Below, in pieces: positions 11,523 through 57,876 of a stretch of DNA of 64,000 nt. Source of the stretch: Costertonia aggregata (GTDB taxonomy: Bacteria > Bacteroidota > Bacteroidia > Flavobacteriales > Flavobacteriaceae). A program made the position numbers and the translations under genes. The DNA is taken from the NCBI RefSeq assembly GCF_013402795.1, contig NZ_CP058595.1:3202001-3266000 (forward strand). The letters run 5' to 3'. A model generated the notes under the pieces. It was not told the origin of the DNA. It saw nothing but the letters and a program-made list of their open reading frames with translations, and made no database searches. The stretch's first letter is position 1; each line of letters opens with the position of its first letter.

Positions 11523-12626
11523 TCACCGAAGTAATTGATATTTGGTTTTTAAAACCTTTCCCAGAAAATATAAATCCATGCTCAGCGAGTCGTAAATTGT
11601 TTCCTTACTTTGTATGATTTCGCGCATTTTCTCTTTAAACTGTTGGGGTTGCATCGCATGAAAATTACCAAAGAAAAGATAGTTTGTGTCCTTCTTGCTG
11701 ATTTCGCCGTCAACTACATTTTTATTCTCGATTTTTGGCCGGGTTGCCATCACGGACATTATCATTGAAGCGATGCTAAATAGCACAAATATGACGGTCG
11801 GGTAAATAAGATAGGAATTGTTCGGCGTGCCTAATTTTGGGATAAGATTGGCCAGGAGCAGGGAAATAATGATGGCATTTACAGATAATAAAATATTGGC
11901 CTTGGTATCGGCAATATCACTCAGCTTCAGATGATTTCTCAATTGTGTTCGATACAACGACTGAATCGCCCTTTCTGGACTTTGATTTTTAAGTTTGACT
12001 TTTAACTTCTCTTTATTTCTCTTTTTTACGGCCTTGGATGCCGCCCCGATAAGCGATATGAGGTTTTCTTCCTTTTGTGGCTGCCAGTTTTCTTTAGCAT
12101 AATCTGTGTAGAAACGATGTTTTGTTCGGAACGTTTCAATGTACTCATTACGCCACTCTTGTAGTGGGGGAGGGTTCTGGTTCAGGTTTTGCTTTTCCAT
12201 ACGCAACAATTCCATCAACTCCTCAAAATCATCCGAAGCGAAAAATGATGTGCGACCATCTTTGACTATGGCTTCACTCTCATTTGACGGCTCTTCATCG
12301 CTCCATGCTGCTTTGATTAAATCGGTAACCGCGTTGATAGTTGACTTATCTGCATTTATTTTGCTAAGAAAGTCTTCTGCCAACTCGCAACTTGATGCCA
12401 CATGTTTTTCATATCCCTTTGAAAATCCTGCATTGAGAAACCATACTGCGACTAGGACATCTGTATGATCAAGATTTTTGGGTTCATAGCTGTTTAAGAT
12501 TTCCTCAACACGTGTCGCTATTTTTTTGGATTGGGAAAAAGTATGAAATAGGTAATTTTTACCCAATTGTTCCGATAGCAGCTCGGCAATATGGTTTTTT
12601 GATTTCTCCACTAGATTTTTCATCAA
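11523..12626 (-). CDS. Pycsar-effector-like protein: degenerate HD domain plus PycTM (DUF5706)
   Basis: A 367-residue protein. Residues about 15-150 resemble an HD phosphohydrolase domain; residues 222-365 match the Pycsar effector transmembrane domain (PycTM/DUF5706), with the hallmark DIADTKANILLSVNAIIISL and two membrane helices (about 240-262 and 275-293). PycTM proteins respond to cyclic pyrimidine nucleotides made by PycC and damage the membrane in phage defence. No PycC-type cyclase is recognised within this window. The HD signature is broken: the expected HD pair is L64-N65 in WFLNAGF, although outlying His28 and His75 remain. The ATG overlaps the stop of the DUF808 gene by 4 nt, so the two are translationally coupled. 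Confidence 0.82.
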   Translation of the reverse strand: MMKNLVEKSKNHIAELLSEQLGKNYLFHTFSQSKKIATRVEEILNSYEPKNLDHTDVLVAVWFLNAGFSKGYEKHVASSCELAEDFLSKINADKSTINAVTDLIKAAWSDEEPSNESEAIVKDGRTSFFASDDFEELMELLRMEKQNLNQNPPPLQEWRNEYIETFRTKHRFYTDYAKENWQPQKEENLISLIGAASKAVKKRNKEKLKVKLKNQSPERAIQSLYRTQLRNHLKLSDIADTKANILLSVNAIIISLLLANLIPKLGTPNNSYLIYPTVIFVLFSIASMIMSVMATRPKIENKNVVDGEISKKDTNYLFFGNFHAMQPQQFKEKMREIIQSKETIYDSLSMDLYFLGKVLKTKYQLLR

Positions 12627-20472: not shown

Positions 20473-23400
20473 TCAAACTCTGACGACTCTTCCCGATACT
20501 CTTTCACTCCATTGGCCGTTCGTATCCCTTACCCTTACCTCAAAGTCTTGGTCAAGATACTTTAAACGGCTTTCACGGGGTTCCTCTTCCAACATGAAAT
20601 ATCGATCCACTCCATTGCCCGTTGCTTCATTGTAATTGAATATACGCGTATCCCATCGGTTGGTACTCCTGTTGAATATCCTGATTTCCACTTGGTCCAA
20701 AGTGGCACCTCCATAGGCTTCCGAACACCCAATATCAAAACAGGTATAAATTCGGACTTGATAATCGCAACCGTTCAATCCCCCACAACTGACATTGTGC
20801 TTTTCCCCTTTTACCAATGCCACAGGTCTTCCCAAAGTTTCAACAAATGTGCTTCCGCTTTTGGAATGCCCTGTTGAGTTCTCTACCTCAAAATCAATTG
20901 TAAACGTATTTGGAGTCTCAGGATAAAAAGTAAGGTTAGTGCTCCCATAATTCAATGGAATTGTCTCCCCCTCATCATATCGATTTCCACTATAAAAGAA
21001 GTAACCAACACGATTTCCACTGAAAGAGAATGTCATTTGATAAGTTACAGCAGGATTATGCGTGCCAATGGCATTTGTGATCACCGTGATGTTAAAAGGT
21101 TCTCCTTCCAAACGTTCCCCAGGAGCCTGACTGATGGTCAACTCGAATGGTTCCTCATACCTTTCATAATTGATATTGACGTTTGCTCTTTTTTCCACAT
21201 CGGAGGATGAGCGCACCGTGAACGTAATGTTATGGTTGCCTTCGGTCGTTCCGAGATATTTTCCCGAAAATGCCCCTACTGGTACTTCAAAACTTTCCCC
21301 AGCTGAATAGTCAGTACCTTCATATTCAAAAGTACCGTTGTTTCCACCTGCCGAGAAATACATTTCATAGGTGTCTCCGCCTATTCCTATTTCAGATATG
21401 TTAAAGTTCATATCGACGATTTCGTTGGTGTAAGCCTGCTGTAAAGTGCCGGACGCGTTAAACGTATAATCCTTGGCCGTCACGTTTACCGTGATATCCA
21501 CAGTTTTTTCAAGCCCCGTATCATTTTGGACTACGAAAACCATTTTCACGGTACTCTCATCGGTGCCTTCAAGCGTCCAGTTGAAGTTGCCCGTATTCAC
21601 ATCGTAACTGTTACCAGGACTTACTTCTATACCATTGTTGTCTCTGATTAGCGCATTACCGTTCATACTGAAACGCATGGTGTAATCTGAAGACCCCACA
21701 CTTTCAGAAATATTGAAATTCAGACCGGTGGTTTCCCCTACGGTTATGTCCGATTTTTGGGTGCCCCCTGTAAAGGTAAAATCGACCTGGTCAAAAGTGA
21801 TGGTAGTGTTGGCCGTTCGGATAACGTCCGAACCCGATTCTACGCTGAGAACAATATTGTGCTGTCCGGGTTCTGTTCCGGTATAGGTAATATTGTTGAT
21901 CCCGGCACCTAACGAAAATTGTTCCCCCGGACCGTAGATTATTCCATTTATGGACATCGAACCGTTTTGGCTTGAGGAAAAGAACGCCATGTAGCTGTCG
22001 TTCGCTCCGTCGGGAACTTCATCGATATCCACGATCATACCTACCGGAATACTGGAAAATTCCGTAGCCTTGGACGGGGTCATATTGACAGTAAAATCAT
22101 TGTTTCCAACAACCAAGATTACTTTTTCTTCCAAGATTTGACCATTACTATCGCGCAACAGAAACGTAACTTCATACGTCCCTGGTTGTTCGGCAATAAA
22201 GTCATAAGCGAAACTTCCAGGATTTATAGAAAAGTAACGACTCTGCGTAATCTCGGAGTTGCTATTGTACAATGCCGCGCTGCCACCTGAAACAAAATAG
22301 TTGAGTTCATACGATGCCCCATCGTACTCCCCTTTTTCGATAAGGCTCAATGCGACCGTACCCCGTTGGCCTACCAATACCTCGCTGCTATTGGCGGAAG
22401 CATTAAATTCCAGTTCCAATTGCTCGGTGTCCAAATCGATTCCGACCGGTCCGACCGCTTGCCCGTAGTTGTCCGTTACCAAGAAACTTATGCGATGCGT
22501 ACCCAATGTTTCGGGCGTATAGAAAAGGGAAAAATTACCCAAGTTTACCGGATAATCCGTATTGTTCGTAATCGTATTTCCATTGATTCCTGTTACCCTT
22601 CCGTTTCCTTCTTCCAAGTTATAGGTCAGAAAATAATCGATGTTATCCGTATTCCCGCTCGACTTGATATTGAAATTGAGTTGCGTACGCTGGTTCATGA
22701 AAACTTGATTGCTTTCGGCATTTCCACTGAATGTGAACGGGATATTGGCCACTTCGATTTCGACGCTGTCCCTTTTCATCTGACCATTGCTATCCCGTAC
22801 ATCGAAGTAAATCTTGCGCTGCCCCAATACATCGTCCTGAAAAGTAAAGTTGTAGTTCCCGGGTACTACATCACGAAAGGTCCCGGCATCCATTACCCCG
22901 CCGTTTTGATTACGAACGGTTCCGGCCCCCTGGCTATCCGCCGAAAAGGAATGGCTTATATCGTAGGTTACTTCGCTTTCCTCGTCTTGTGTTCGCAAAT
23001 CGATATTCACGGCCAAATTGGATTCCAATTCGACTTGGGAAGAAGCGGCTGTTGCCCTGAACGTGAAATTGACATTACCAATATTTAAAATTAGTTCGTT
23101 TGAGATTGTCGCCCCATCGGGAGCCTTGGCCGTCATGGTCAATCTATGCTCTCCCAAGGTTTCGGGAAGATATCCAAGTTCAGTTACCCCTTTGGGTAAT
23201 TTAAAAGGTTCCCCTGCATCGTACACAGCGTCATCTAAATAAAGTACACCCGTGCCGTTCTCCAATTGATAGGTTGTTTCAAAGTCTTTATCTCTGCCGC
23301 CATCGGGAGATGTTGTCTCCTTATCCCTTAACAAGGTAACCGTTACCGGGTTTTGACTATTGACAATGAAATCATCGGTACCCTTGCCGAGCGAAAAGCT

Positions 23401-23829
23401 GAAACTTGCATATTTGACATTGTACAGCAACTCCAGCTCTTTCTCAATTTTATTGGAATCCCAAGCCAGTACTTTTACCTTATGCATTCCCGTATCAATG
23501 GGCATATACCGATAGGATAGATTAAAGTTCTGGATCGGTATCGTATCGTTAGCACGAACCGTATCATTTTCTGCCCCTATATAATATCCTTTTCCGTCAA
23601 GATTATCGTACTTCATGAAATAGGATACATTGGAGACCATACGTTCGGGTTCCAAGATAAAATCCGTTTTCGTCGCTTCGAATACGAATCCGTTTTCTTC
23701 ATTGGAGCCTTCAAAAGTAAAATCGAAGGAATCTTGAACGATATCCTCGAAGTCCTTGCTACAGGCCAATATTAAAATGCAGCATACCGCTGTTAGCGCG
23801 TATATTCGTTGTAGGGCATTCATTTTCAT
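20473..23829 (-). CDS. traQ: Giant TraQ-like repeat lipoprotein
   Basis: A 1118-residue exported lipoprotein (signal peptide, lipobox Cys in ILACSKDF at residue 23). It consists of nine tandem Ig-like repeats of about 105 residues starting near residues 35, 142, 254, 365, 473, 578, 683, 787 and 893. Each opens with a strand such as FTFSG, then a YxMxF strand, a Gly-rich hairpin and a closing GxHxIxFxVxDSxG strand. Residues 1000-1118 form a distinct Cys-containing end domain. It occupies the traQ place after traO; classical TraQ (DUF3872) is far shorter. A surface adhesin or mating-pair role is inferred. It is the last gene of the tra operon. Confidence 0.75.
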   Translation of the reverse strand: MKMNALQRIYALTAVCCILILACSKDFEDIVQDSFDFTFEGSNEENGFVFEATKTDFILEPERMVSNVSYFMKYDNLDGKGYYIGAENDTVRANDTIPIQNFNLSYRYMPIDTGMHKVKVLAWDSNKIEKELELLYNVKYASFSFSLGKGTDDFIVNSQNPVTVTLLRDKETTSPDGGRDKDFETTYQLENGTGVLYLDDAVYDAGEPFKLPKGVTELGYLPETLGEHRLTMTAKAPDGATISNELILNIGNVNFTFRATAASSQVELESNLAVNIDLRTQDEESEVTYDISHSFSADSQGAGTVRNQNGGVMDAGTFRDVVPGNYNFTFQDDVLGQRKIYFDVRDSNGQMKRDSVEIEVANIPFTFSGNAESNQVFMNQRTQLNFNIKSSGNTDNIDYFLTYNLEEGNGRVTGINGNTITNNTDYPVNLGNFSLFYTPETLGTHRISFLVTDNYGQAVGPVGIDLDTEQLELEFNASANSSEVLVGQRGTVALSLIEKGEYDGASYELNYFVSGGSAALYNSNSEITQSRYFSINPGSFAYDFIAEQPGTYEVTFLLRDSNGQILEEKVILVVGNNDFTVNMTPSKATEFSSIPVGMIVDIDEVPDGANDSYMAFFSSSQNGSMSINGIIYGPGEQFSLGAGINNITYTGTEPGQHNIVLSVESGSDVIRTANTTITFDQVDFTFTGGTQKSDITVGETTGLNFNISESVGSSDYTMRFSMNGNALIRDNNGIEVSPGNSYDVNTGNFNWTLEGTDESTVKMVFVVQNDTGLEKTVDITVNVTAKDYTFNASGTLQQAYTNEIVDMNFNISEIGIGGDTYEMYFSAGGNNGTFEYEGTDYSAGESFEVPVGAFSGKYLGTTEGNHNITFTVRSSSDVEKRANVNINYERYEEPFELTISQAPGERLEGEPFNITVITNAIGTHNPAVTYQMTFSFSGNRVGYFFYSGNRYDEGETIPLNYGSTNLTFYPETPNTFTIDFEVENSTGHSKSGSTFVETLGRPVALVKGEKHNVSCGGLNGCDYQVRIYTCFDIGCSEAYGGATLDQVEIRIFNRSTNRWDTRIFNYNEATGNGVDRYFMLEEEPRESRLKYLDQDFEVRVRDTNGQWSERVSGRVVRV

Positions 23830-31803: not shown

Positions 31804-32134
31804 CCGGCGGCGGTTCGGAATTTTTGATAATCTTAAATTTTTCATGTTCTGGAATTAAGGATTCATTCTGAACATCTTTATCGGAAGCATTGAAAATATC
31901 CAGCAGCTCGGAGCTGGTTTCGTTTTCATCGACACGGTTGAGTAATTGGTCCATATCTTTTTCCTTTAAAGATGTGTTTTTTACAAATATAAAAGATTTT
32001 TGCACAAATGAATCATTTTCCTGAACTTTCTTTTCTTTTTTATTTCGTTTGAGTATAACAAAGACCGCTATGTACCAAAGTAACCCTAAAGTACAGATGA
32101 CCACATAGACGATATGTTCCCATTGCCAGTTCAA
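31778..32134 (-). CDS. TraD-like membrane-anchored hypothetical protein
   Basis: A 118-residue protein with an N-terminal membrane helix (IVYVVICTLGLLWYIAVFVI) and a long charged cytosolic tail ending in a Pro/Asp-rich stretch (SEPPPDAEVDDSV). No domain is recognised. It lies where traD or traC stands in Bacteroidetes transfer operons, between the DUF3408 gene and traE, overlapping both. The tail could contact the TraG ATPase; that is a guess from position. Confidence 0.65.
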   Translation of the reverse strand: MNWQWEHIVYVVICTLGLLWYIAVFVILKRNKKEKKVQENDSFVQKSFIFVKNTSLKEKDMDQLLNRVDENETSSELLDIFNASDKDVQNESLIPEHEKFKIIKNSEPPPDAEVDDSV

Positions 32135-32571
32135 ATCCTATCGATAATATCTTTTAATCTCATAACGCTTTTGTCATGATACAGTTCCAGCGCTTTTCGC
32201 ATAATATCATTTCGGGACACCTTTTTGTTCAACTTATAATTATAGGCACTTGCCAGTTTTTCATAATCTTCGAAACAGGTTTTGCTCAGCCTGAAGATGA
32301 ACTGTTCCTTCTTGTCGGAATACCGATTTTCCTCCAGAAATAGTTCAAAATCCGCTACCTTTTTTCGTTCGCTCTCATTCAAATTGGCCGTTGGAAAACG
32401 CTCCACAGTCGGCCGTTGTGATGCGATATTTTCCAAATCGTTGTCTTTCAACTTGTTCTCCGTGATGTCCGGGTCTCGTTCATCCCTGAGACCTTTAACT
32501 TCTTTTTGTGTGTCCATATTGTCCAAAATCGCTGATTCGAGCAAATCTTTGACATTCAACTTCTTTCCCAT
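32131..32571 (-). CDS. DUF3408-type protein with ribbon-helix-helix-like C terminus
   Basis: A 146-residue protein with an acidic N-terminal half and a C-terminal half reading FRLSKTCFEDYEKLASAYNY then KVSRNDIMRKALELYHD, typical of DUF3408 and of ribbon-helix-helix DNA-binding proteins. It directly follows the ParA-like TraA gene (2-nt gap), the place of TraB/TraC. It could act as the ParB-like partner or centromere-binding protein of TraA, with the repeat-rich 33249-33490 region as its site; this pairing is inference. Confidence 0.7.
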   Translation of the reverse strand: MGKKLNVKDLLESAILDNMDTQKEVKGLRDERDPDITENKLKDNDLENIASQRPTVERFPTANLNESERKKVADFELFLEENRYSDKKEQFIFRLSKTCFEDYEKLASAYNYKLNKKVSRNDIMRKALELYHDKSVMRLKDIIDRI

Positions 32572-32573
32572 AT

Positions 32574-33248
32574 TCAGTTTTTTGATATTTCAAGTACTTC
32601 TTCCATAAATCGTTTAAGCCCCTGTTCGCCGTTTTCTTTCGATAAGGGAATGGGAACAAGCGTATTCCTGTATTTCTCCCTATAAATAGTTCGTTCCATG
32701 ACCACTTGTCGCATCATGGGCATTCCCGCTCGCGCCAGGGTTTTGCGGACGGCATTGAACTTGTTGACCTTTACGAGTTCGTAACGGTTGAAAAAAAGAT
32801 TGACGGAACGTAGCACCCGATTGTCATTGTCGAGGAAATTCTTCCGTAGGGTCTTATAGAATACTGCGGTACTGTCGATTTCCAATTCGTCAAGAAAAAA
32901 GGGAATGAAGATGTGTTCCACATACAAGAGGCCTCTGACCATTTCCTCATTCAGGTTTCCCGGGAAATCGATTATGATGAAATCGACGATACCGTAATAT
33001 TTTTTGATTAGCGGTTCCAAGGTATGGATGGTCGCTCGCTCCACCGGAAAGGCATCTGTTTCCATTTTCCCGATTTGCGCTAAATCCCGTTTCCGCTTTT
33101 TATAGACCGAATACTGTGGATTGTCCATATCCATAAGCACCACCTTTTTACCGTACAGATGGAAAAGGTTGGTGGCCAGGATAATATTCAGGGTCGTTTT
33201 GCCACAACCGCCCTTTTCGCCCGTACAGGAGATAATTTTTGTTTCCAT
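32574..33248 (-). CDS. traA: ParA-family ATPase TraA
   Basis: A 224-residue ATPase with a deviant Walker A motif KGGCGKTT (about residues 12-19), the switch region LMDMDNPQ and a Walker B-like IIIDFPGN. This is the TraA/ParA protein at the head of Bacteroidetes tra operons. ParA proteins bind DNA non-specifically and need a partner bound to a centromere-like site; both a candidate partner (DUF3408 gene) and a repeat cluster flank it. Confidence 0.9.
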   Translation of the reverse strand: METKIISCTGEKGGCGKTTLNIILATNLFHLYGKKVVLMDMDNPQYSVYKKRKRDLAQIGKMETDAFPVERATIHTLEPLIKKYYGIVDFIIIDFPGNLNEEMVRGLLYVEHIFIPFFLDELEIDSTAVFYKTLRKNFLDNDNRVLRSVNLFFNRYELVKVNKFNAVRKTLARAGMPMMRQVVMERTIYREKYRNTLVPIPLSKENGEQGLKRFMEEVLEISKN

Positions 33249-33490
33249 TGGTATACGTTTAAAATTAAATGAGCATATGATTATAGTGTCCTATGGTCAT
33301 ATGATGCTATAAACAATTAATGCAATAAGGCTATGAAGCTATAACGCTATATAGCATTGTTGCAATAGCACTATAACGCCTTGAAGCTATAGTGCTCTAT
33401 AGCAATGAACATGGCGTGAGTAGGTATTTGGAGTAAGGGGTATGTTGTTAAGTAGCTAAAAATGAATCGAACTGGTGTGCCGGAAAAATG
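33249..33490. promoter_or_regulatory. Repeat-rich control region upstream of traA
   Basis: A 242-nt gene-free stretch with many copies of the hexamer GCTATA / TATAGC and close variants between 33300 and 33405. It includes a perfect 10-bp palindrome GCTATATAGC (33346-33355), two AAGCTATA copies and an inverted repeat AGCACTATA / TATAGTGCT (33367-33375 and 33388-33396). It is directly upstream of traA and downstream of the XRE-type regulator gene. Candidate operator or parS-like site. Confidence 0.6.
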
Positions 33491-33889
33491 CTATAATTCG
33501 GACTTAAAGTCCTTTATCGCATCCGATACACGTTCTTCCAATTCAAGGAACTTTTCTTGAAGCCCTCCTTGATATACCATGTTCTCCCCGAGCTTTCGCT
33601 TTTGGATAAATTCATTGTCGGGCAGAAGTATCCATATGGGATTGTAGCCCAAGCTATAGAAATAGAGAATGATCTTTATCGAATTGACCATGGAAGAGCC
33701 TCGCTCGACATTGGCCAAAGTCGCACGGTCAATGTTCAGTCGTTCGCTCAGATTCGTTAATGAAAATTCACTAAATCGTTTGTCCTCTATATCGTCGAGT
33801 TCGACAAGTTCCAGTCGTATTTCCTTTAAACGTTCCCCGATATATCCAAGGTCCTTTGAGTCTAGTGCAATGATCGATTCAATATCCAT
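33491..33889 (-). CDS. XRE-type helix-turn-helix regulator
   Basis: A 132-residue protein with an N-terminal helical extension, then a helix-turn-helix (about 44-70: FSLTNLSERLNIDRATLANV followed by ERGSS) and a C-terminal helical tail. The segment YSLGYNPIWILLPDN resembles flavobacterial HTH regulators. It is translated from a TAATG overlap with the coupling-protein stop. It lies immediately before the repeat-rich region that precedes traA, so it may regulate the tra operon. Confidence 0.75.
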   Translation of the reverse strand: MDIESIIALDSKDLGYIGERLKEIRLELVELDDIEDKRFSEFSLTNLSERLNIDRATLANVERGSSMVNSIKIILYFYSLGYNPIWILLPDNEFIQKRKLGENMVYQGGLQEKFLELEERVSDAIKDFKSEL

Positions 33890-42821: not shown

Positions 42822-45800
42822 ATGAATAATGATATATTGGCCCGCATTCTTGAGGCGATAAAAACGGCCAATCCTGATAACTTTTATATCAATAATGGTG
42901 GTTTGGCAACATTGGGGCAGCTATTGTTCTATCCTCCAAAAGGAAAGGAAAACGTAGGCCATGAGCTGTTAGAAACTATCCAACAAGCATTTCCGGAAAC
43001 TTCAAAGGAAATTCTCGATTCCCTTAAACGGTACCATCTTACCAGCTATTACACCCCAAAAGCTATCATCGAGTATAAGATCAATCTGCTGAAAAAAAAT
43101 GGTTTTGAACCAAAGACCATATTGGAACCTTCAGCAGGAAACGGGGCTTACGTTCAGCAACTAAAAAAAGCTTTCCCCAATGCTGAGATTACCGCTTTGG
43201 AACCGGATATTCTATCCTTCGAAATAATGAAGGCCAACAATGTAAGAAGTGATAAGGTAACCGTTCTCAACATCCCGTTCGAGGATTACTATTTAAATTA
43301 TGATAAGCAAGGACAATTCGATTTGGTCATGACCAATATTCCATTTGGGGATATTCCGATTACCAAGGCCTATCAACACGATTATCTAACGGAAGGTCCG
43401 CTTAAGAACGTTGGCAACTATTTTAACGTCTACGCGCCCAAAATGGCACGACAAGGCGGTGTTACGGCTTTGATCACCTCTTCCGCCTTTGCCGAACGAA
43501 GTGCCTATACTGATTTCAGACAAAGGATTTTATTCGAAAACGACTTGCTTCTGGCCAATCGTTTCAATACTGATTTATTCTCCAATGAAGGGACAAAGGT
43601 TGTATCCGATTTATTGGTCTATCGAAAGACATCGAACAAAAGCGTTCTTTCCGAAAGTGAAATGCAACTTGTGGAAACGGAAAGTATTGAACTGGACGGA
43701 CAGCGGTTTGGGACGAACCGGTTCTTTAAAACGAATACCGAACAGGTTAACGGTGTACCGAAATTGGGCTTTTTCCATAACCGGCCGAGCATGGTCATTG
43801 AACCTGACGGCAAGTCCCTAAACGAGTTTTTGGAACGGCAGGCCAATAGCTTTGATTTTGAACAAATTGCTGCACCTCGTACTACCGAAAAGATTCATAA
43901 AACCGTTCCCGAAGCATCAGCACCCGTAAAGGAGAAGGCCGTAGCAGCACCGCCTTCTCAATTGGAAGTTGGTTCCGTACCTATAGCATTGCACGACGCA
44001 GATGCCAAACAATTTACCCGATTATTTTTTGGCAGCTATAATTTTGACGAAAAGGGAGCTGTGCTTTTTTATACAGACCCTCATAGTACTAGAAAGGTGC
44101 CGAATAAAATCACGGAGCTGGTACAGGATTACGCCCGTATGCGGAACGACCTCGTTCTTTTACTCTTAAATATAGAAAAAGGTAGACTTTCGGAAAAGGA
44201 CATCACCAAGCGTTTCCAAGATATCGATTATCAATTGGACACTTTCCATTTCAAATGGGGTTCGCTGAAACAACATCTTATTTTTCTGAAAGAAGACCAT
44301 TACTTTGAACAGGTCCGTCAACAGTTCGAGAAAAAGATAGCAGGCCAGGGCTATGGTAAAAACCCTGAATTTACCCTGCAACGATTTTTACGACCGCAGC
44401 CCGTAGAACGGGTAGAGGAACAAATACCGGGAACCAAGGAACAACTACATACAACGGCAGATGAAAAACGATTTGAGAATCCCGAAGCAATGGCGAGGTA
44501 CCAGTTTGACCAAAATGGAAACATCGATATCGGCGAAATAGCGCAAGCGTTCAAGACCAATGAAAAAAACCTTTTGCTGAGCGGACTCGAAAACCGTTCC
44601 TTTTTTCTGGAACCCGATTCGGAATCCGAAACTAGATACAGAACTGTTCCCTATTTTCTATTTTCCAGTGGTTACATCCAGGACAAAATCGATTATGTCC
44701 GGAACAATCCCCCACCATATGGAATCGAATCGGAAAAAATAGAACAGGCCCTTGCAGATATGTTACCCGTAAAACTAGACTTAAATGATATCGAGTTCAA
44801 TTTCGAAAGTCATTTTATCCCGACTACCGCTAAGGAATCCTTTTTAGAGGAACTCATCAATGAAAAAGTGCGGATCAATGTAGGTCAGTTCAATTCGACC
44901 TTGACACTACTGTTCCCAAGGGATTATAATTTGGAGGCACATGAACGTTTCAGTGTAGTTCTGAACCATGAAGTCAAGGCAAGCTATAAACGGATATTGC
45001 AACACTTCGCGGAAAACAGGTATCCGGTCATTTTCACTTCTTACAAGGACAGGTCCGGTAAGACGATTCGGAAATTGGATAAGGACGCTACCTTGATGGC
45101 ACAAAATCTGTACGAAGAATTACAGCTGCATTTCAAATCCTTTATCGAGGGGCGTCAAGAACTGAAAGCCACCATCGAAGATAATTATTACCAGGCGTTT
45201 CTAGCTGACGTCAATATTTCCGTACCCAAGGGTTGGCTCACATTTCCGGAAACCTTGGTGTATCCGCCCTATCAGCATCAAATCGATTCCACCTTGTTCA
45301 GTCTTACCAAAGGGAGTGCACTGAACGACCATCAGGTGGGCAAAGGCAAGACCCTTTCCATGGCCATGCTGGGCTATAAATTGAAACAACACGGGAAAAG
45401 TGAACGCACAATGTTACTCACCTTGAAAAGCGTAGCACCACAAATCGAAGCGGAAATCAGGGCAAACTTCCCTGAATTGAACATTCTTCGATTGAGTTCC
45501 AAGAATATGGCCAAAAGCAAACGCCCCAAAACCTTACGCACCTTAAAAAACAATAAGACCATTGACCTGATTATCGCCGAACATGGGCATTTAAAACGAA
45601 TACCAAAAGAGCGAAGATTTGTACTGGAGACCTTGGAAGAAAAAATCGAGATGATAGAACAAGATTTGGAAACGGCAAAGCAATATGGAAACGGTAAGGA
45701 ATCCAAGAAATTGATCAAGGGTATGATCAAGCGAAAGGAACACTTGGAAGACAAGCTACAGGCCAACCTGAAAAAGTTGAAAGAGCGTTCGACGGAAACC

Positions 45801-47828
45801 GAAACCACCTTGAGTGATTTGCGCATCGAAGCCCTGATGATCGACGAAGCACATTACTTTAAGAATATCGGTTTTACGACACGGCACCAGAACGTATCGG
45901 GTCTTAACAATCATTCCGACAGTCAAAGAAACCTCGACCTTGAAATCAGTATTAAATCCATTCATGCGCGGATGGGAATGGATAATAACATCTTTTTTTA
46001 CAGCGGTACACCTCTAAAGAACTCGGTTACCGAACTATATGCCTATCAACGCTACTTGACACCATCGGCATTGAAACGTAAGAACATCTTTAATTTCGAT
46101 GCATGGGCCTCTATTTTTTTAAAGCAAAGCGTAAGTATTGAACCCAATATTTTTGGCGACCCACGGATGCACGCACGTTTTCGGTATTATACCAACCTCC
46201 CCGAGTTGAGCAAGATGTACAATTCCTTTACCCACATCTGTCGTGACAATCATTTCAAGACCCATGATTTAGAAACTGATAGGGAGTTTGTAATTTTAGA
46301 ATCCACTCCGGCCTATGAAGAACTCAAACAGGCCTCTCTAGACTTTACCAAGAACCGGAACCAAAAGGCACTTTTCAAATTGCCCATATATGATGATGAG
46401 CAAATGAAATCCGCCCATATTACCGCTTTGAACATCAATAGGTCGCTTTTGATCGACCCTCTTGCTAAGGATAATATGGCCGTAAAATTTACGGAACTTG
46501 ACCAGTTCAAACTGCAACGGCTCTGTCGCGATGTAGCCGAACTCTACAAAAGAACATCGAAACACAAAGGGGTGTGTTTGGTATTCTCCGACTTGAACGT
46601 TTGGAAACCCGGCCAGAATAATTCCTATGATGCGGTACGCGGGATACTACAAGAAGACTACGGCATTCCTGTAGATGAAATTGCATTGGCTCAAGAGGAA
46701 AAAGCGAAGAACAGAACAGACCAAATGCAAGAAAAAATTCGAAGTGGTTCAATTCGTGTGGCCTTGGGAAGCACCCAAGTTTTAGGCACAGGGACCAACA
46801 TTCAAAAGAGGGTGGTGGGCATCTTTCATATGGACATTCCCTATTCCCCAGATGCTTTTGACCAACGGGCCGGACGAGGTCTAAGAAAGGGCAATGAAGT
46901 GGCGCAAATTTATGGTAATACAGTAGTGGAACGGTTCTACGGCGTCAAGGATTCCACCGATATCTTTTCTTATTCCCTGAACACCCATAAAGAAAAGTTT
47001 CGGGAACAGATTCGAGAAGCCGACACGAACAAACGTGTTTATGACGATCTTGTTCCCGATGACAAAAGTCTCTCCTACGAACAAATGCAGGCCGCACTAA
47101 TTGGGGATATGGATCAGTTTCAATTGGTAAAACTTTCCGACGATCTTAAGTTTTTACAGTCGCAGAAGCGATTGCACGAACTGAACAAAGCAAATTCCTT
47201 TAAGGCCATTGAACGAATCGAAAAGGAGAACAAGCATATCATCTCACAATTGGTCGAGCTGGAAAGCGCGCAAAAAGTAATAAAAACGTTCAACTTGCCC
47301 ATGGATGAAAATGCATTCGAGGATTCGTCCCGATTAAAGGAAGGACTGAACAATCTAATTTCAGATTCCGTTCTTGTATCCAAAGAACTAATGACCAAGG
47401 AGCCCAATGAGTTTATCAAAAATCTAGGTCTTAAGATCGTAGAACACTCAAAGCTAAATTTGAACGTTCAAAAACACCAGCGGGTAGCCCATTTTCCATC
47501 GTTAAATGCGAATCTCGTTTTTCAGGCCGACTATGTACCTTCAAACGAGCATTATCTTTACTCTTTTAGATTGGAATTTAAAAACATACACGTTTCCGGT
47601 AGAAAACAGCAGCGTTTCGACCCGGAGAAATTGGCCTTGCAACTTGTCAAGTTATGTCAAAAAGTAGCCCGGGAAATCAAATCGAAAAAATTTGATTTGA
47701 ACTATAACCTACGTACTTTGGAAACCCATCGAAAAAAAACAGCCGTTGGTTTTCCTGATGAAAAAATAGCAAAAATGCAGGTTTTGAAACATGAAATCAA
47801 AACACTTAAACGGAAACGGGCGGGGTAA
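42822..47828 (+). CDS. N6-DNA methyltransferase / SNF2-type helicase fusion
   Basis: A 1668-residue mobile-element protein. N-terminal methyltransferase: motif I ILEPSAGNGAY (about residue 103) and motif IV TNIPFGD (about 172; NIPF stands where NPPF/Y is usual). Central region about 350-800 of unknown function. SF2 helicase: Walker A-like VGKGKT (about 838), DEAH box IDEAHYFKN (about 1006), FYSGTPLKNS, and motif VI DQRAGRGLRKGN (about 1347). The C-terminal 250 residues are coiled-coil rich. Such proteins are common on Bacteroidetes conjugative elements and may mark or protect transferred DNA; that role is not established here. Confidence 0.88.
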   Translation: MNNDILARILEAIKTANPDNFYINNGGLATLGQLLFYPPKGKENVGHELLETIQQAFPETSKEILDSLKRYHLTSYYTPKAIIEYKINLLKKNGFEPKTILEPSAGNGAYVQQLKKAFPNAEITALEPDILSFEIMKANNVRSDKVTVLNIPFEDYYLNYDKQGQFDLVMTNIPFGDIPITKAYQHDYLTEGPLKNVGNYFNVYAPKMARQGGVTALITSSAFAERSAYTDFRQRILFENDLLLANRFNTDLFSNEGTKVVSDLLVYRKTSNKSVLSESEMQLVETESIELDGQRFGTNRFFKTNTEQVNGVPKLGFFHNRPSMVIEPDGKSLNEFLERQANSFDFEQIAAPRTTEKIHKTVPEASAPVKEKAVAAPPSQLEVGSVPIALHDADAKQFTRLFFGSYNFDEKGAVLFYTDPHSTRKVPNKITELVQDYARMRNDLVLLLLNIEKGRLSEKDITKRFQDIDYQLDTFHFKWGSLKQHLIFLKEDHYFEQVRQQFEKKIAGQGYGKNPEFTLQRFLRPQPVERVEEQIPGTKEQLHTTADEKRFENPEAMARYQFDQNGNIDIGEIAQAFKTNEKNLLLSGLENRSFFLEPDSESETRYRTVPYFLFSSGYIQDKIDYVRNNPPPYGIESEKIEQALADMLPVKLDLNDIEFNFESHFIPTTAKESFLEELINEKVRINVGQFNSTLTLLFPRDYNLEAHERFSVVLNHEVKASYKRILQHFAENRYPVIFTSYKDRSGKTIRKLDKDATLMAQNLYEELQLHFKSFIEGRQELKATIEDNYYQAFLADVNISVPKGWLTFPETLVYPPYQHQIDSTLFSLTKGSALNDHQVGKGKTLSMAMLGYKLKQHGKSERTMLLTLKSVAPQIEAEIRANFPELNILRLSSKNMAKSKRPKTLRTLKNNKTIDLIIAEHGHLKRIPKERRFVLETLEEKIEMIEQDLETAKQYGNGKESKKLIKGMIKRKEHLEDKLQANLKKLKERSTETETTLSDLRIEALMIDEAHYFKNIGFTTRHQNVSGLNNHSDSQRNLDLEISIKSIHARMGMDNNIFFYSGTPLKNSVTELYAYQRYLTPSALKRKNIFNFDAWASIFLKQSVSIEPNIFGDPRMHARFRYYTNLPELSKMYNSFTHICRDNHFKTHDLETDREFVILESTPAYEELKQASLDFTKNRNQKALFKLPIYDDEQMKSAHITALNINRSLLIDPLAKDNMAVKFTELDQFKLQRLCRDVAELYKRTSKHKGVCLVFSDLNVWKPGQNNSYDAVRGILQEDYGIPVDEIALAQEEKAKNRTDQMQEKIRSGSIRVALGSTQVLGTGTNIQKRVVGIFHMDIPYSPDAFDQRAGRGLRKGNEVAQIYGNTVVERFYGVKDSTDIFSYSLNTHKEKFREQIREADTNKRVYDDLVPDDKSLSYEQMQAALIGDMDQFQLVKLSDDLKFLQSQKRLHELNKANSFKAIERIEKENKHIISQLVELESAQKVIKTFNLPMDENAFEDSSRLKEGLNNLISDSVLVSKELMTKEPNEFIKNLGLKIVEHSKLNLNVQKHQRVAHFPSLNANLVFQADYVPSNEHYLYSFRLEFKNIHVSGRKQQRFDPEKLALQLVKLCQKVAREIKSKKFDLNYNLRTLETHRKKTAVGFPDEKIAKMQVLKHEIKTLKRKRAG

Positions 47829-49494: not shown

Positions 49495-49992
49495 ATGAGC
49501 AATTTTTTTTCGACCCTGAAACAGATGGGTGTCGAACAGTACGGAATCAGTATTCTGTTCGATGATGAGACGGTCAGCGTATCTGTACTTCCCAAATCAA
49601 GTGCAAATGACAAGGCACTACAATCCCTAAAACCACTTACTCTAAGGGGAAACGTTATGGAAGTGGACGAGAAATTCTTTCAAATACTCCAAAAACCCTT
49701 GGAACAGACCAAAACCCTGTTTAGAAATACTGCTGCCTTTGAGAAGTCGTTACAAGAAACCGAGCAAAAAACCCAACAGGCGAAAAAGAAAAAGGAATCC
49801 GCTTCCAAAAAGGCGATCGAGTTAAAGCAACTCCTAAAGGAAAAAGGCTTTAATCCCATGACCGATCACAAAAAGGCAACGGACATCGCCAATGAGATTT
49901 TGAGGATAGACCCGAACCATAAAGAGGCGCAGAAAGTCGTCAAGGAAATGAAAGCATACGAATCACCAAACCTCTTTGAGCAATGGAAGTAG
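49495..49992 (+). CDS. PRTRC system protein E
   Basis: A 165-residue protein starting MSNFFSTLKQMGVEQYGISI, with a basic coiled-coil middle (TQQAKKKKESASKKAIELKQ) and a tetratricopeptide-like end (ATDIANEILRIDPNHKEAQK). This matches protein E of the PRTRC (ParB-related, ThiF-related) cassette found on plasmids and ICEs. The biochemical role is unknown. Its stop overlaps the start of protein C by 10 nt. Confidence 0.8.
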   Translation: MSNFFSTLKQMGVEQYGISILFDDETVSVSVLPKSSANDKALQSLKPLTLRGNVMEVDEKFFQILQKPLEQTKTLFRNTAAFEKSLQETEQKTQQAKKKKESASKKAIELKQLLKEKGFNPMTDHKKATDIANEILRIDPNHKEAQKVVKEMKAYESPNLFEQWK

Positions 49993-50201
49993 CAACGATA
50001 GAACGCAAATACATATTTCAGGACGGGAACAACCAAACCTTGGTACTGGACGATATCGATAACAATTTGAGCCATGAACAGGTAATGGATTTCTATTCAC
50101 AGTTATATGCAGAAATGACCAACGCAAATATCATGGACAAGGGTATTGTTAACGGTTACCATGAAATCCATTTCAAGACCTTGGCGGGAACAAAGGGATA
50201 G
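49983..50201 (+). CDS. PRTRC system protein C
   Basis: A 72-residue protein, small and beta-rich, ending with HEIHFKTLAGTKG. It fits PRTRC protein C, which has a ubiquitin-like size and a Gly near the end. Together with a ThiF-type activating enzyme in the same cassette this suggests, as inference only, a ubiquitin-like conjugation or sulfur-carrier chemistry. Overlaps gene E. Confidence 0.78.
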   Translation: MEVATIERKYIFQDGNNQTLVLDDIDNNLSHEQVMDFYSQLYAEMTNANIMDKGIVNGYHEIHFKTLAGTKG

Positions 50202-50237
50202 GCCGATGAACATAGACGAATTTTTAAGACAAGACCA

Positions 50238-51278
50238 ATGCAAGCCGAAATACAAATTGAACACCCCAAGCGATTTAACAATATTTCACGACCGATTGTT
50301 TCGGGCGGTACAGCAGAAACACTATCAAAGGGGAACGCAAAGACCAAAAGTACTGCAACCAAAGGTTTTTCCGTTTCTGACGTAACACTTTTGCCCGTTC
50401 TTTCCCAACCCTTGGTAAGCGAGGAATACGAATCTGACATGAAGGAACTTGCCCGTTTGATGTTAGCCGTTACCCGAAAGTTCACGGGCAGCATCGACCA
50501 TTGGGAATTTATGCCATCCGATAGTTTGCACGATGTAGTGCTAAGATGTACCCATAGGTTGAGGACAAGGGGCAATATCGATCATATCGAAGTTCTTAGA
50601 GACGAAGGAAACTTAAGGTTGATATTGAAGAAGTTCATCGGCAACCGCAGTACGGTGTACTTTATTCCCGTCCGTCCAATTATTGAACTAAGGCATCGAA
50701 ACCGGACACTCTTTCACATTCTGCTGTCTTTTGTTAAAAGCCTGCCTTACGGTGGACTGTTCCCAAGCTGTGAATCGAGAATCGACTGGCTCTGGGAATT
50801 TCTCTTTGAGGATATGGAGAACTACAAGGACAACAAGCAAATCGTCAAGAACCATTCGACCAACTTCTATGCAAGGAACAGGAACTTTTTGGAAGCCTAT
50901 GAAATGAGGGATTGGAAAACCCTGTTGGACAAATACCAACCCCGAAAACCGATTTACAAACAAATCAAAACATTATTGCTCAAAACAGGAACCATCGATT
51001 TTCAAGTGCCATTTCTGTTAACGGTCAAGGATGGATATGACTGTATGTTCGAGCATTGGGAATCGTTTCTTACGGTCGATAGGGAAGATAGCGCATTTGC
51101 CAATGGTTACATTCAAATGCTCAACGATTGCTCGAACGACTATGATATCATATCCGCTTATCAACATACCGTTGCCGAAAACGGAAATATTGAACCCTTC
51201 GATGATGGCATTCCCTATCGATTGAACCAATTGGAAGAATTTATCAACGACCTGAGCGAACTTTTAAACGAACTCTAG
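50238..51278 (+). CDS. PRTRC cassette protein, possibly F-like
   Basis: A 346-residue soluble protein without a recognised catalytic motif. It is in the place of PRTRC protein F, between C and B, and has repeated short tryptophan/phenylalanine-rich helical stretches (IDWLWEFLFEDMENY, DGYDCMFEHWESFL). An overlapping frame from ATG 50206 (MNIDEFLRQDQCKPKY..., 59 codons, different frame) lies over the proposed start, so the N terminus is uncertain or the start may be shifted. Confidence 0.6.
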   Translation: MQAEIQIEHPKRFNNISRPIVSGGTAETLSKGNAKTKSTATKGFSVSDVTLLPVLSQPLVSEEYESDMKELARLMLAVTRKFTGSIDHWEFMPSDSLHDVVLRCTHRLRTRGNIDHIEVLRDEGNLRLILKKFIGNRSTVYFIPVRPIIELRHRNRTLFHILLSFVKSLPYGGLFPSCESRIDWLWEFLFEDMENYKDNKQIVKNHSTNFYARNRNFLEAYEMRDWKTLLDKYQPRKPIYKQIKTLLLKTGTIDFQVPFLLTVKDGYDCMFEHWESFLTVDREDSAFANGYIQMLNDCSNDYDIISAYQHTVAENGNIEPFDDGIPYRLNQLEEFINDLSELLNEL

Positions 51279-51281
51279 CAC

Positions 51282-51989
51282 ATGGAACAAATAGCCGTAT
51301 TGAACGCCAAAGATCACTTTTTGCCAAAATTTGCAATCATCGGATATGAACGGGAAGACGAGAACTATCGCAACGACCACTACTTTTCATACCATGAAGT
51401 GGCAGGAACAAAATTGACCGCAGGGATGCCATTGACCAAGGACACCGCCCGAAATATTTTCACCTGTCTAGAGGGCGATCTGATAAAGTTCCGCTTCAAG
51501 GGAATGCTTCCACGGAATCTGATACACTTCGATTTTAAGGGTAATTTCCAACTGATATGGTACGTACATCCCAAACAACGGATGCTTTACTTCGATGCCC
51601 AAACGGGCATCCCTTCGGGAAAATACCCCCTGCCCAAATTGATTTTTAAACTAGAAGGCAACAGTTTAAAAGTATTCGCCCTGAACCGAAAGGAATCCCT
51701 AACGGAAGATACCTCCTTATACCATGCCCCATTGCTGAATATAGGTAGTCATGGTAAGGTATGCATGGGCAATGCCTCAATGGATTATGATGAATTTGAA
51801 TACTACGAGGACGTAATGGGTTTTGTGGAACAACAGTTTTTCCGTTCCGTTTTTACCGATACGCACCACAACAATTTGGTCGAAGGTAACATAGTGAACG
51901 TAATGAAGCAAAATTTTGAGAAACCCTCATTTGACGATGGAGTATTGATAGCCAACAAAATGACCTTAAACCAACTCTATGAAAACTAG
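51282..51989 (+). CDS. PRTRC system protein B
   Basis: A 235-residue protein typical of PRTRC protein B: the central LIHFDFKGNFQLIWYVHPKQ and the later LYHAPLLNIGSHGKVCMGNA segments. No enzymatic motif is known. It starts 3 nt after the preceding stop and overlaps the ThiF gene by 11 nt. Confidence 0.82.
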   Translation: MEQIAVLNAKDHFLPKFAIIGYEREDENYRNDHYFSYHEVAGTKLTAGMPLTKDTARNIFTCLEGDLIKFRFKGMLPRNLIHFDFKGNFQLIWYVHPKQRMLYFDAQTGIPSGKYPLPKLIFKLEGNSLKVFALNRKESLTEDTSLYHAPLLNIGSHGKVCMGNASMDYDEFEYYEDVMGFVEQQFFRSVFTDTHHNNLVEGNIVNVMKQNFEKPSFDDGVLIANKMTLNQLYEN

Positions 51990-52758
51990 GATACACTTTG
52001 CCCCCAACTATTTTTATAACCCGACACATCCCATTACGGTTGCGTTGATAGGGGTCGGTGGAACAGGCTCATTGATGCTCGCAAGATTGGCAAGGATAGA
52101 TTATGCCCTACGGCAAGTAGGACACCCAGGGTTGCATGTTATTGCCTATGATTCCGATAAGGTAGAGCCTAACAATGTAGGACGGCAACTTTATACGGTA
52201 TCGGATATTGGGGAATACAAAGTCGTTAATGCCGTATGCAAGGTCAATATGACGTTTGGGCTTCAATGGGAAGGCATCCCGATGGATGCATTGCCCGATA
52301 GCGAGGATGTACGGGCGAATATTATTATCACTTGCGTTGACATTGCCTCTTTTCGGGTACAATTGGCGCAATCGATTCGACAACCCCACAAAGGCTCCGA
52401 TTATGCCAATGGGTACTATTGGTTGGATTTAGGCAATAGCAGAAATACAGGGCAATTTGTTTTGGGAACCTTGTTCAATGAGGAGCGAAAAATGGAACGG
52501 GAAGATTTTGAAATGGTGGACAAACTGAAAAACATCATCGACTTTTTTCCCGATTTGGATGCGCACGATACCCCGAACTTACAGGGAGCGGGATGCGCCT
52601 ACTCCGATAAGTTGAATGAGCAGTCTTTGTTTATTAACGATGTATTGGTTGCCCATGCGTCCGACTGTCTGTTTCGGCTGTTGTACCATAAGCAGATACA
52701 GAAGCACGGGGCATTTGTGAATTTGGAATCGGGTAAGGTAAACTCGATAGGTGTCTGA
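51979..52758 (+). CDS. PRTRC system ThiF-family protein
   Basis: A 259-residue E1-like adenylating enzyme. The nucleotide-binding motif GVGGTGS is at about residue 19, and the DSDKVEPNNVGRQLY segment carries the Asp and Arg typical of ThiF/MoeB/E1 proteins. The Zn-binding CxxC pairs of MoeB are not seen. In this family ThiF adenylates the C terminus of a ubiquitin-like partner; in PRTRC the partner is unknown. It is the last recognised gene of the cassette. Confidence 0.85.
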   Translation: MKTRIHFAPNYFYNPTHPITVALIGVGGTGSLMLARLARIDYALRQVGHPGLHVIAYDSDKVEPNNVGRQLYTVSDIGEYKVVNAVCKVNMTFGLQWEGIPMDALPDSEDVRANIIITCVDIASFRVQLAQSIRQPHKGSDYANGYYWLDLGNSRNTGQFVLGTLFNEERKMEREDFEMVDKLKNIIDFFPDLDAHDTPNLQGAGCAYSDKLNEQSLFINDVLVAHASDCLFRLLYHKQIQKHGAFVNLESGKVNSIGV

Positions 52759-53022: not shown

Positions 53023-53379
53023 TCGTACCATTTGGGCGTCCATTCTTATTGACCTATCTCTTTCTTTCCCTCCCCATGGTTTCTGCGGAAGTTATGTAAA
53101 AGCTGCGCCTTATCGGCTTGCCTTCACATAACCTTCTCGAAACGCAAAGCAAAAGTATAAAAGCCTGAAAAAGGCTTTCATACCTTTGCAGAATGTGTTC
53201 TTCCGTTCCATAGTATTAAAACCTGTTCGATACTCGTACTGTTGATTTCTAGCCTTAAGATATTGGACCGGATTTTTTTGTAATAAAATTGAATACAACT
53301 ATTCCAGGATTAGAATAACAGCCAAACCTATTTTGTAACAAAAATTTACTAAATTTGTTACAAATAAGATATGTATGTT
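53023..53379. other. Gap before the toxin-antitoxin operon
   Basis: About 350 nt between the small membrane gene and the AbiEi-type gene. The only clear structure is the operator palindrome at 53332-53364; a 62-codon minus-strand frame at 53110-53298 was not accepted. Confidence 0.45.
53332..53364 (+). promoter_or_regulatory. Palindromic operator-promoter of the AbiE-type operon
   Basis: Perfect 11-bp inverted repeat TTTGTAACAAA / TTTGTTACAAA separated by 11 nt. The -7 box TAAATTTG (53350-53357) lies inside the spacer and right arm, so a bound protein would block transcription. AbiEi antitoxins are known to bind inverted repeats at their own promoter. Confidence 0.7.
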
Positions 53380-53982
53380 ATGCAGAGCGTTGAGTCCAAA
53401 ATAAAAAAAGCCATTTCCAAAAAGAAGCGGGGAGATTTATTGTTTCCCGATGATTTTAGGAGATTGGGTTCATCCGAAGCTATACGTTTGGCTCTCCATA
53501 GAATTGAGAAAGAGGGCTTTATTCAAAGGGTAGCCCAAGGAATCTATGTACGCCCAAAGACAAGTAAATATGTGGGAGAGGTGTTGCCAACGGCAGAGGA
53601 AATTGCTAGGGCCATAGCTAAAAGAGACCAGATCCGATTAGTGCCTACCGGGGTATATGCTTCAAGCGCATTGGGGCTTAGTACACAAGTCCCCATGAAA
53701 CTTGTCTTTCTTACCGATGGAGCTCCCCGGGAAATAAAGTTGGGGAAGCGAAGCATAAAATTAAAGAAAACTACCCCTAAGAATCTATCGGCCAAAGGGG
53801 AGATAAGCAGGCTGGTCATACAGGCCCTTCGTGAAATTGGAAAAGACCAATTAACGGAAGGAGAAGAAGCAAAAATTATAGACCTCTTGAAAAAAGAGGA
53901 TCAAAAAGACCTGCTTCACGATATAGCATTGGCTCCGGCATGGATCCGTAAAATCATGGAAAAGAGCTTGGAGAATGGATAA
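53380..53982 (+). CDS. DUF6088 / AbiEi-type antitoxin
   Basis: A 200-residue protein with an N-terminal winged helix-turn-helix (about 5-60: RGDLLFPDDFRRLGSSEAIR then IQRVAQGIYVRPK) followed by an alpha/beta domain (LVPTGVYASSALGLSTQVP). This is the layout of DUF6088/AbiEi antitoxins of type IV systems, which repress their own operon. The ATG at 53380 is preferred to the one at 53371 because the -7 box ends at 53357. Its stop overlaps the toxin start by 8 nt. Confidence 0.84.
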   Translation: MQSVESKIKKAISKKKRGDLLFPDDFRRLGSSEAIRLALHRIEKEGFIQRVAQGIYVRPKTSKYVGEVLPTAEEIARAIAKRDQIRLVPTGVYASSALGLSTQVPMKLVFLTDGAPREIKLGKRSIKLKKTTPKNLSAKGEISRLVIQALREIGKDQLTEGEEAKIIDLLKKEDQKDLLHDIALAPAWIRKIMEKSLENG

Positions 53983-55012
53983 AGTTAAATTTTACGATAT
54001 ACCCAAAGAAGATTGGCTTGCCATCTTTAAAAATATAGAAAACAAAACGGGAATACCGGATTTTGCAGTTGAAAAAGATTGGTGGGTCGTCCAGACCTTG
54101 AAGATAGTCTTTGGAATGGGGATATCTGAACATTTGGTCTTTAAAGGCGGGACGTCGCCAAGCAAAGCTTGGAAACTGATAGGTCGATTCAGTGAAGATA
54201 TCGACCTTGCTGTTGACCGTGAATTTTTTGGATACTCCGGGGAACTATCAAAAAAACAATTGACCAAATTACGGAAGGAAACCAGCTCCTATCTCTCTGG
54301 GAAATTCTACCCTGAGTTACAAGAGCGATTTCAGAAGAACGGATTTAAGGATGTGGGTTTCAACATCATTCAGGCCGAATCAAGCGACCAAGACCCCCGT
54401 ATCATAGAAATCTATTATCCATTTCTGACCAAATCCCCTGGATATATCCAACCAAGAGTCCAGGTTGAAATTGGCTGTCGCTCGTTAAGAGAACCATTTA
54501 GTTTAACGCCGATAAAGTCTTTCGTGGACGAAGAATATCCAAATGCCGAATTTGTTGAGCCTCCAGTTAATGTTCCGTCGGTAACCCCTGAAAGGACTTT
54601 TTTGGAAAAACTGTTCTTACTGCATGAGGAATTCCAGCGTCCTAAGGAGAAGGTTAGGGTTGACAGGTTAAGCCGTCACTTATACGACATTTACCAATTA
54701 TCAAAAACAGAATTTGCGGCCAATGCCATCAACAATCAAGAATTATATGAAACCATAGTAAACCATAGGTATATATTCACAAAACTCGGTGGGGTCGATT
54801 ATAACCTGCATCACCCACAGGACATACGACCCATCCCATCCCTTGGGTATGAGGACGATTGGAAGGCAGATTATAAAACAATGCAAGAGCAAATGATTTA
54901 TGGGGATTCCCCATCCTATGAAGATTTGGTCAAGGAAATCCAAGAATTTTTAGAAGGGATGAAGGCATTGGATTGGAGAATGAGAACGGAATTTCCCTCG
55001 CCTAAGGGTTGA
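53975..55012 (+). CDS. AbiEii/AbiGii-type nucleotidyltransferase toxin
   Basis: A 345-residue nucleotidyltransferase with the family motif KGGTSPSKAWKLIGRFSEDIDL (residues about 47-68), which holds the GG(T/S) and the paired catalytic acids. The AbiEii family toxin acts in abortive phage infection and plasmid stabilisation by nucleotidylating RNA targets. Later conserved YPF, TPERTFLEK and RLSRHLYDIYQL segments fit. It is translationally coupled to the antitoxin, as typical for type IV toxin-antitoxin pairs. Confidence 0.9.
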   Translation: MDKVKFYDIPKEDWLAIFKNIENKTGIPDFAVEKDWWVVQTLKIVFGMGISEHLVFKGGTSPSKAWKLIGRFSEDIDLAVDREFFGYSGELSKKQLTKLRKETSSYLSGKFYPELQERFQKNGFKDVGFNIIQAESSDQDPRIIEIYYPFLTKSPGYIQPRVQVEIGCRSLREPFSLTPIKSFVDEEYPNAEFVEPPVNVPSVTPERTFLEKLFLLHEEFQRPKEKVRVDRLSRHLYDIYQLSKTEFAANAINNQELYETIVNHRYIFTKLGGVDYNLHHPQDIRPIPSLGYEDDWKADYKTMQEQMIYGDSPSYEDLVKEIQEFLEGMKALDWRMRTEFPSPKG

Positions 55013-56318: not shown

Positions 56319-56484
56319 TTACCGTACAACACTCCATGTACGGCAAAGCCCTTATTGACTTGCGATATGTTTTAGGTTTGGTCTAAGTTAATCGGAGGTC
56401 ACGTAGCAAGCCATGTTTTTGCAAGCAAAAACCGCTCACTTTGTTCGCGAGTCTTGTTGGGGAACCTCCCCAAACCCCTTAATT
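56319..56484. other. Candidate oriT upstream of mob genes
   Basis: A 165-nt non-coding stretch with three hairpins in a row: CCGTACA / TGTACGG (56322-56343), TTTTTGC / GCAAAAA (56416-56431) and TTGGGGA / TCCCCAA (56457-56473). It directly precedes mobC and the relaxase gene, the usual oriT position in mobilisable and conjugative elements. No nic consensus was identified. Confidence 0.5.
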
Positions 56485-56826
56485 ATGGCACGGCCAAAAA
56501 AAGATATTGAATCACTAAAGGCAATACGGGTCAACGTACGGATGACAGTCAATGAATACCTAATTGTTTCTGGTAACGCGGCAACTTTAGGAATGGGCAT
56601 ACCAGATTACGTTCGCAAGAAGATAACTAGTAGACCGCTTCCACGAACCAAGATAACACCGGAGAACAGACAGCTGTTCGTTGAGCTAAGCCGTATCGGA
56701 AACAACATCAACCAATTGACAAGAAACTCCCATCTAAGAATGCATGCGCCTAAAAGCTTGTTTTACCAGTTGGGGAAATTGAGAAAAGTCATACATGAAT
56801 TAAAGTCCGAAATCAAAAAGCGATGA
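56485..56826 (+). CDS. mobC: Mobilisation relaxosome accessory protein MobC
   Basis: A 113-residue DNA-binding relaxosome protein. The N terminus (MARPKKDIESLKAIRVNVRM) resembles a ribbon-helix-helix region and the C-terminal half has the MobC signature RIGNNINQLTRNSH. A start at 56413 is open but would overlap the candidate oriT; the ATG at 56485 is preferred. It overlaps the relaxase by 4 nt. Confidence 0.88.
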   Translation: MARPKKDIESLKAIRVNVRMTVNEYLIVSGNAATLGMGIPDYVRKKITSRPLPRTKITPENRQLFVELSRIGNNINQLTRNSHLRMHAPKSLFYQLGKLRKVIHELKSEIKKR

Positions 56827-57854: not shown

Positions 57855-57876
57855 AAGCGGGGAATCATTGGATTCA

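Follow-up and report, generated by a model that had tools for sequence, protein, structure and literature searches.

What is the cluster of short repeats that lies directly upstream of traA in a tra gene cluster of Costertonia aggregata, and which protein would read it? The intergenic gap is 242 nt long (33249–33490; positions are those of the window, the whole stretch of 64,000 nucleotides analysed). It is without an ORF of annotated size and is flanked by traA (32574–33248, minus strand) and an XRE-like ORF (33491–33889, minus strand). The initial annotation described hexamers, a 10-bp palindrome and a 9-bp inverted repeat in a gap of about 240 nt and proposed a centromere-like site or a switch of the transfer operon. 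All these repeats are present, but the description is incomplete. GCTATA/TATAGC hexamers occur six times inside the gap and once more across its edge (33490–33495); over the 64-kb window, 40 are observed and 17.9 expected. The palindrome, GCTATATAGC, is perfect (33346–33355). The inverted repeat has its arms at 33367–33375 and 33388–33396. Hexamers, palindrome and inverted repeat are parts of one octamer array; the unit is 8 bp, not the hexamer.

The array occupies positions 33269–33412 (minus strand) and is built from some 18 phased 8-bp units in tandem, as delimited by octamer fit, lag z scores, sliding windows, period scan and dyad phase. Units read on the traA strand are TATAGCnn and CATATGnn, in a single register, degenerate in the window. 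The start codon of traA is placed by the octamer fit 20 bp beyond the array end. The five promoter-proximal octamers (33269–33308, minus strand) contain CATATG at 33274–33279 and 33298–33303; CATATG stretches adjoin the start codon also in L003–L007. The promoter of the tra operon presumably lies within the gap (33249–33490). The promoter scan of the gap used an E. coli-type consensus, which is unsuited to Bacteroidota, and is uninformative for the phylum.

Periodicity of the 200 bp upstream of traA is marked, with z of 5.6, 6.6 and 7.3 at lags of 8, 16 and 24 (relative to dinucleotide-preserving shuffles). The score of this region is reached by 1 of 3190 sliding windows over the 64 kb, which starts at 33261 and overlaps it. 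MetJ, the repressor of E. coli metF, reads 8-bp boxes. Its target metF, used as a control, gives a best period of 8 (z 3.7). The metJ–metB control is partly positive (2.1 for the last 120 bp before metB, 1.5 for the whole region, 0.1 for the metJ side).

TraA is found at E ≤ 1e-15 in 11 of 397 genomes of the family, its own genome counted (L001–L011). A scan of the collection yields 45 loci, of which 43 are near full-length (L012–L054) and form 21 clusters; L055 and L056, matches of 42 residues, are dropped from the count. L001–L011 are kept out of the 43, and seven of them recur among L012–L054; L011 (26% identity) is treated below as a DUF3408 locus (L061, L083). The 43 relatives are labelled mostly with marine flavobacterial genera, two loci as Cytophaga sp. 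FL35 and one as a Bacteroidia bacterium. No relative is found in viral contigs. In 43 of 43 loci the 200 bp upstream of traA have the highest 8-bp periodicity of the locus (300–599 background windows each). Letters of the array vary by clade: TATAGC/CATATG, ATTCATTT, GATATnnn and others. The phase is thus conserved and the sequence is not. The outcome named in the initial annotation as refuting, loss of the repeats among relatives with conserved flanking genes, is not seen: the 8-bp spacing is kept, with letters that change between clades.

A second set of loci was chosen by Pfam DUF3408, a criterion blind to the array. In conjugative transposons of the CTnDOT type, DUF3408 is the family of the small protein that follows ParA. 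Pfam search finds DUF3408 in 9 of 296 Bacteroidia genomes. The first set comprises 19 regions: a ParA gene is present in 12, and seven (L093–L099) are without ParA by the criteria applied. The array has the top 8-bp score of its own 15–16-kb locus in ten of the 12 ParA–DUF3408 loci, in L083 narrowly (0.081 vs 0.074); it is weak and not top in L086 (equalled or exceeded by 3 of 716 windows) and L089 (by 1 of 766). Plasmid loci, three picked from 29 records, carry an array in two cases; L100 is negative. In a scan of periods 5–15 over 37 non-redundant clusters of both kinds, the best period is 8 in 28, 12 in eight and 14 in one. Period 8 is significant in shuffles (P < 0.05) in 36 of 37 clusters, the exception being L089 (0.075).

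A later DUF3408 set comprises 56 loci among the matches listed, with ParA in 35 (25 clusters) and none by the criteria in 21. Twenty of the 25 clusters have p < 0.05, and period 8 is best in 19; L120, L121, L129, L130 and L140 are without array signal. L108 and L132 duplicate earlier arrays on de-duplication, which leaves 18 of 23 new clusters positive. Matches to DUF3408 are often tandem, the second listed with one internal TGA (L058/L074, G788, G777, G721, G723, G744, G902, G891, G874).

All 35 arrays tested have their dyad axes at a fixed phase to the 8-bp register (P ≤ 0.03; complementary matches in one axis class); the test covered the 37 representatives other than L089 and L100. Where an array repeats at lag 4 as well, which is the case for some, a second axis class appears. 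Symmetry at fixed phase would suit one bound dimer per 8 bp. Certain close relatives are divided by whole-unit indels (8; 16, 8, 16; 8, 8, 16); other gap lengths also occur. Inside arrays, 9 of 15 gaps of at least 6 nt, redundant pairs included, are 8 or 16 nt long; outside, 6 of 26 are multiples of 8. The count is confined to alignable pairs, many of all pairs not being truly alignable, and is not used as support. Whole-unit indels could be explained by slippage too.

TraA, called ParA-like in the initial annotation, is a small ParA-like ATPase of 224 aa with the motif KGGCGKTT. Pfam matches are AAA_31 (1.8e-11) and CbiA (2.5e-8). The NCBIfam model ParA_partition matches at 5.8e-20, below the model cut-off; the VirC1 model is weak (E 0.0036). 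Profile matches in PDB are Soj and ParF. The motif begins at residue 12, so there is no room for an N-terminal HTH. TraA thus has the ParA features of a type Ib module: small size, deviant Walker A, N-terminal HTH absent.

The traB-like gene (32131–32571, minus strand) encodes a protein of 146 aa, the candidate ribbon-helix-helix reader of the array. In the alignment the N-terminal region is variable and Arg32 is invariant. Partners in type Ib modules combine a ribbon-helix-helix domain with a flexible N-terminus that bears an Arg finger. The C-terminal region has a strand-helix-helix look, judged by eye. RHH_1 is matched in 1 of 29 members (Pfam, E 0.13). The AlphaFold monomer has a pLDDT of 57 for the whole protein and 72 for the C-terminal 85 residues, with residues 27–32, the expected strand, below 50. 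A Foldseek search with the 85-residue model gives nothing at E ≤ 0.001 (two matches, E 7 and 10). No match to PDB sequences is found. PHROGs matches are weak and fall almost entirely in families without a known function. The initial annotation called this protein DUF3408, a label that has to be withdrawn: Pfam PF11888 does not match it even with E values up to 5, hhalign to DUF3408 and to MetJ finds no significant similarity, the family is absent among those matched by the 29 TraB members at E up to 1, and the genome that carries the window has 0 matches.

Two gene orders are found. In the window and 21 of 43 relatives the order is T4CP, XRE, array, traA, traB (type I); in 20 of 43 it is divergent relaxase, array, traA, traB (type II). 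L034 (too little upstream sequence) and L040 (no relaxase match) stand outside both counts. Six type II loci, from three clusters, have an XRE homologue 4.6–5.8 kb off, with the array still at traA; behind the displaced homologues no array is found (best score 0.031 vs 0.091–0.113 at traA). In the window, the MobC and relaxase genes (56413–57854) lie 23 kb from the array, and the 8-bp score detects no array near them; adjacency to relaxase genes is therefore unnecessary. Present in both gene orders and absent at displaced XRE homologues and at MobC/relaxase genes, the array goes with traA–traB, and its place before traA is independent of XRE and relaxase genes. In 42 of the 43 relatives traB comes next after traA, the sequence of L015 ending before that point. 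Among 100 genomes, the traB family occurs in three (G000, G049, G080), the same three that carry traA.

At constant ParA, array letters covary with the C-terminal region of TraB (n = 22, partial 0.35, permutation p 0.0005); the reverse does not hold (−0.08). In the DUF3408 set, covariation of array letters with the partner beyond ParA is absent (partial 0.04, p 0.24, n = 37).

The tra cluster looks like part of an integrated conjugative element; the genome is one contig of 3.9 Mb. Other features of the window are a protein with a match to the Pycsar effector domain PycTM (11523–12626), an 1118-aa protein with a TraQ_transposon domain (20473–23829), a 1668-aa protein with helicase and methyltransferase-like matches (42822–47828), a PRTRC-type cassette (PRTRC_E, Prok-E2_D, ThiF; 49495–52758) downstream of the tra cluster, an AbiEi/DUF6088 and AbiEii pair resembling a type IV toxin–antitoxin system (53371–55012), and a MobC/NikA-like protein, MobA-type relaxase and serine recombinase (56413–59066), 23 kb from the array.

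The array is comparable to several known DNA sites. Met boxes of MetJ are likewise 8-bp phased, dyad-symmetric tandem sites, and the metF control has the same best period; MetJ is not known to have a ParA partner and works with few boxes. The TraA–TraB (DUF3408) pair of CTnDOT-type transposons likewise consists of a ParA and a small protein encoded next to it, and most loci carry octamer-phased arrays upstream; DUF3408 differs from the TraB of the window in having no significant sequence similarity, and the array letters differ.

In type Ib partition, as described in the available portions of PMC5016525 and PMC9499535, the centromere lies upstream of the operon and the ribbon-helix-helix partner doubles as repressor. 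The same portions give contiguous 7-bp units for omega, of which at least four are required for full ATPase activation (PMC9499535, PMC5016525). Shared with type Ib (delta/omega of pSM19035, ParF/ParG of TP228), as far as these sources extend, are the small ParA, the small downstream partner and the upstream repeat array; as DNA anatomy, a candidate type Ib centromere array is present here. Differences are the 8-bp dyad-symmetric units, the omega heptads being non-palindromic; the position of the module at the start of a conjugation operon, in an element that appears to be integrated; and a partner that is not recognisably homologous.

Partition-type proteins act in DNA transfer in R1, Agrobacterium and gonococcus, according to the accessible parts of PMC4949242 and PMC8716806. 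The system of VirC1, VirC2 and overdrive, in the same parts, combines a ParA-like protein and a partner at a DNA site in type IV transfer (PMC4949242, PMC8716806), and VirC2 is named a ribbon-helix-helix protein in the accessible part of PMC5675868. It differs from the present system, where the array is not tied to relaxase genes and the VirC1 model is weak on TraA. The srpMRC locus of SXT/R391 ICEs is an active ICE partition system in which, as here, centromere-like repeats precede the operon; it differs in being likened to parMRC of R1, in its four 13-bp repeats and in the integrase within the same operon (available text of PMC4489591).

The preferred reading, held at a probability of roughly 0.55, is that the array is a set of tandem sites for TraB, the putative ribbon-helix-helix partner of TraA, and serves as operator and centromere-like site. 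Dimers of TraB would line up on the array upstream of traA, one per octamer, and would repress the traA–traB transfer operon (autoregulation). The complex of TraB and array would be centromere-like, and the ParA-like TraA would act on it to position the DNA of the element. The excised circle may thereby be segregated, or the DNA handed to the transfer machinery. The analysis establishes the array itself, with its 8-bp phase, dyad symmetry, position before traA in many elements and independence of the XRE and relaxase genes; binding by TraB, the ribbon-helix-helix fold of TraB, autoregulation and ParA-driven positioning are inferences. The reading is favoured by the periodicity, symmetry and gene-order results, the covariation with TraB, the co-occurrence of the traB family with traA, the published type Ib scheme and the metF control. 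Against it count the negative or weak fold results for TraB, the absence of covariation beyond ParA in the DUF3408 set, the negative and weak loci, the partly positive MetJ control and the in-array indels, not all of which are multiples of 8.

As an alternative, TraB may bind the octamers cooperatively, as MetJ does, and repress the tra operon with no centromere role. That the array stops only 20 bp short of the start codon is consistent with this, as is the best period of 8 in MetJ-regulated metF. On the other side, about 18 units seem, in our judgement, beyond the needs of simple repression; moreover, the first gene encodes ParA, and the array stands before ParA in most elements examined. 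A pure operator is considered unlikely. Unlikely to a similar degree is the reading that TraA and TraB, akin to VirC1 and VirC2 on overdrive, dock the transfer intermediate at the secretion channel and do not serve segregation. It would agree with the module at the head of a transfer operon and with the relaxase gene divergent from traA in 20 of 43 relatives and in all three plasmids examined, L100, which is without array, among them. Stimulation of conjugation by R1 partition proteins (PMC4949242, in part) and action of gonococcal ParA and ParB in DNA secretion (PMC8716806, in part) also point this way. The MobC and relaxase genes of the window, 23 kb off and without an array beside them, argue against it.

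Control of the whole transfer operon by the XRE-like neighbour through the array is very improbable. The XRE label itself, given to the ORF next to the gap (33491–33889, minus strand), rests on an HTH_3 match (E 0.015) below the cut-off. An XRE gene lies directly upstream in the window and 21 of 43 relatives, which favours such a switch; against it, 20 type II loci carry the array without adjacent XRE, the XRE homologues displaced by 4.6–5.8 kb in six loci (three clusters) have no array behind them, and a head-to-tail step of 8 bp is short for helix-turn-helix dimers. As reader of the array XRE is rejected on gene order, the array staying with traA when XRE is absent or distant; the XRE gene is an unlikely reader. 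The least credible reading is neutral expansion of a tandem repeat through slippage. Near-perfect ATTCATTT repeats in one group of relatives and the whole-unit indels of 8 and 16 speak for it; the recurrence of a single period at one position, in differing letters, across many lineages, the degenerate units of the window and the dyad symmetry at fixed phase speak against it. The array probably docks the operon's own DNA-handling proteins and is not a chance repeat cluster, because many related elements show the same spacing, in different letters, ahead of the corresponding gene. The choice originally offered between a centromere-like site and an operon switch remains the best reading, with arrays in 43 of 43 relatives; its proposed readers do not, XRE being unlikely and the partner not matching DUF3408.

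The array is a real, widespread, phase-conserved DNA element and most likely a centromere-like operator of the TraA–TraB pair. No published account of it was found in the open-access literature, a scope that leaves most subscription journals outside. To our knowledge, no function has been assigned to the traA–traB pair at the start of the tra operon in conjugative elements of Bacteroidota. A site with known place, unit length, symmetry and lineage-varying letters makes the function of this pair testable and names the probable reader. Insertions of half a unit (4 bp) are predicted to break the array, and insertions of a whole unit (8 bp) are not. Element-specific incompatibility or cross-regulation is also predicted. 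A broader proposal is tentative and somewhat short of even odds: a Bacteroidota-wide partition-like module of ParA, partner and octamer array would head transfer operons, its phase kept and its letters diverging with the partner. Each element would then possess a private docking code, which may set expression of the operon and placement of the DNA for segregation or transfer.
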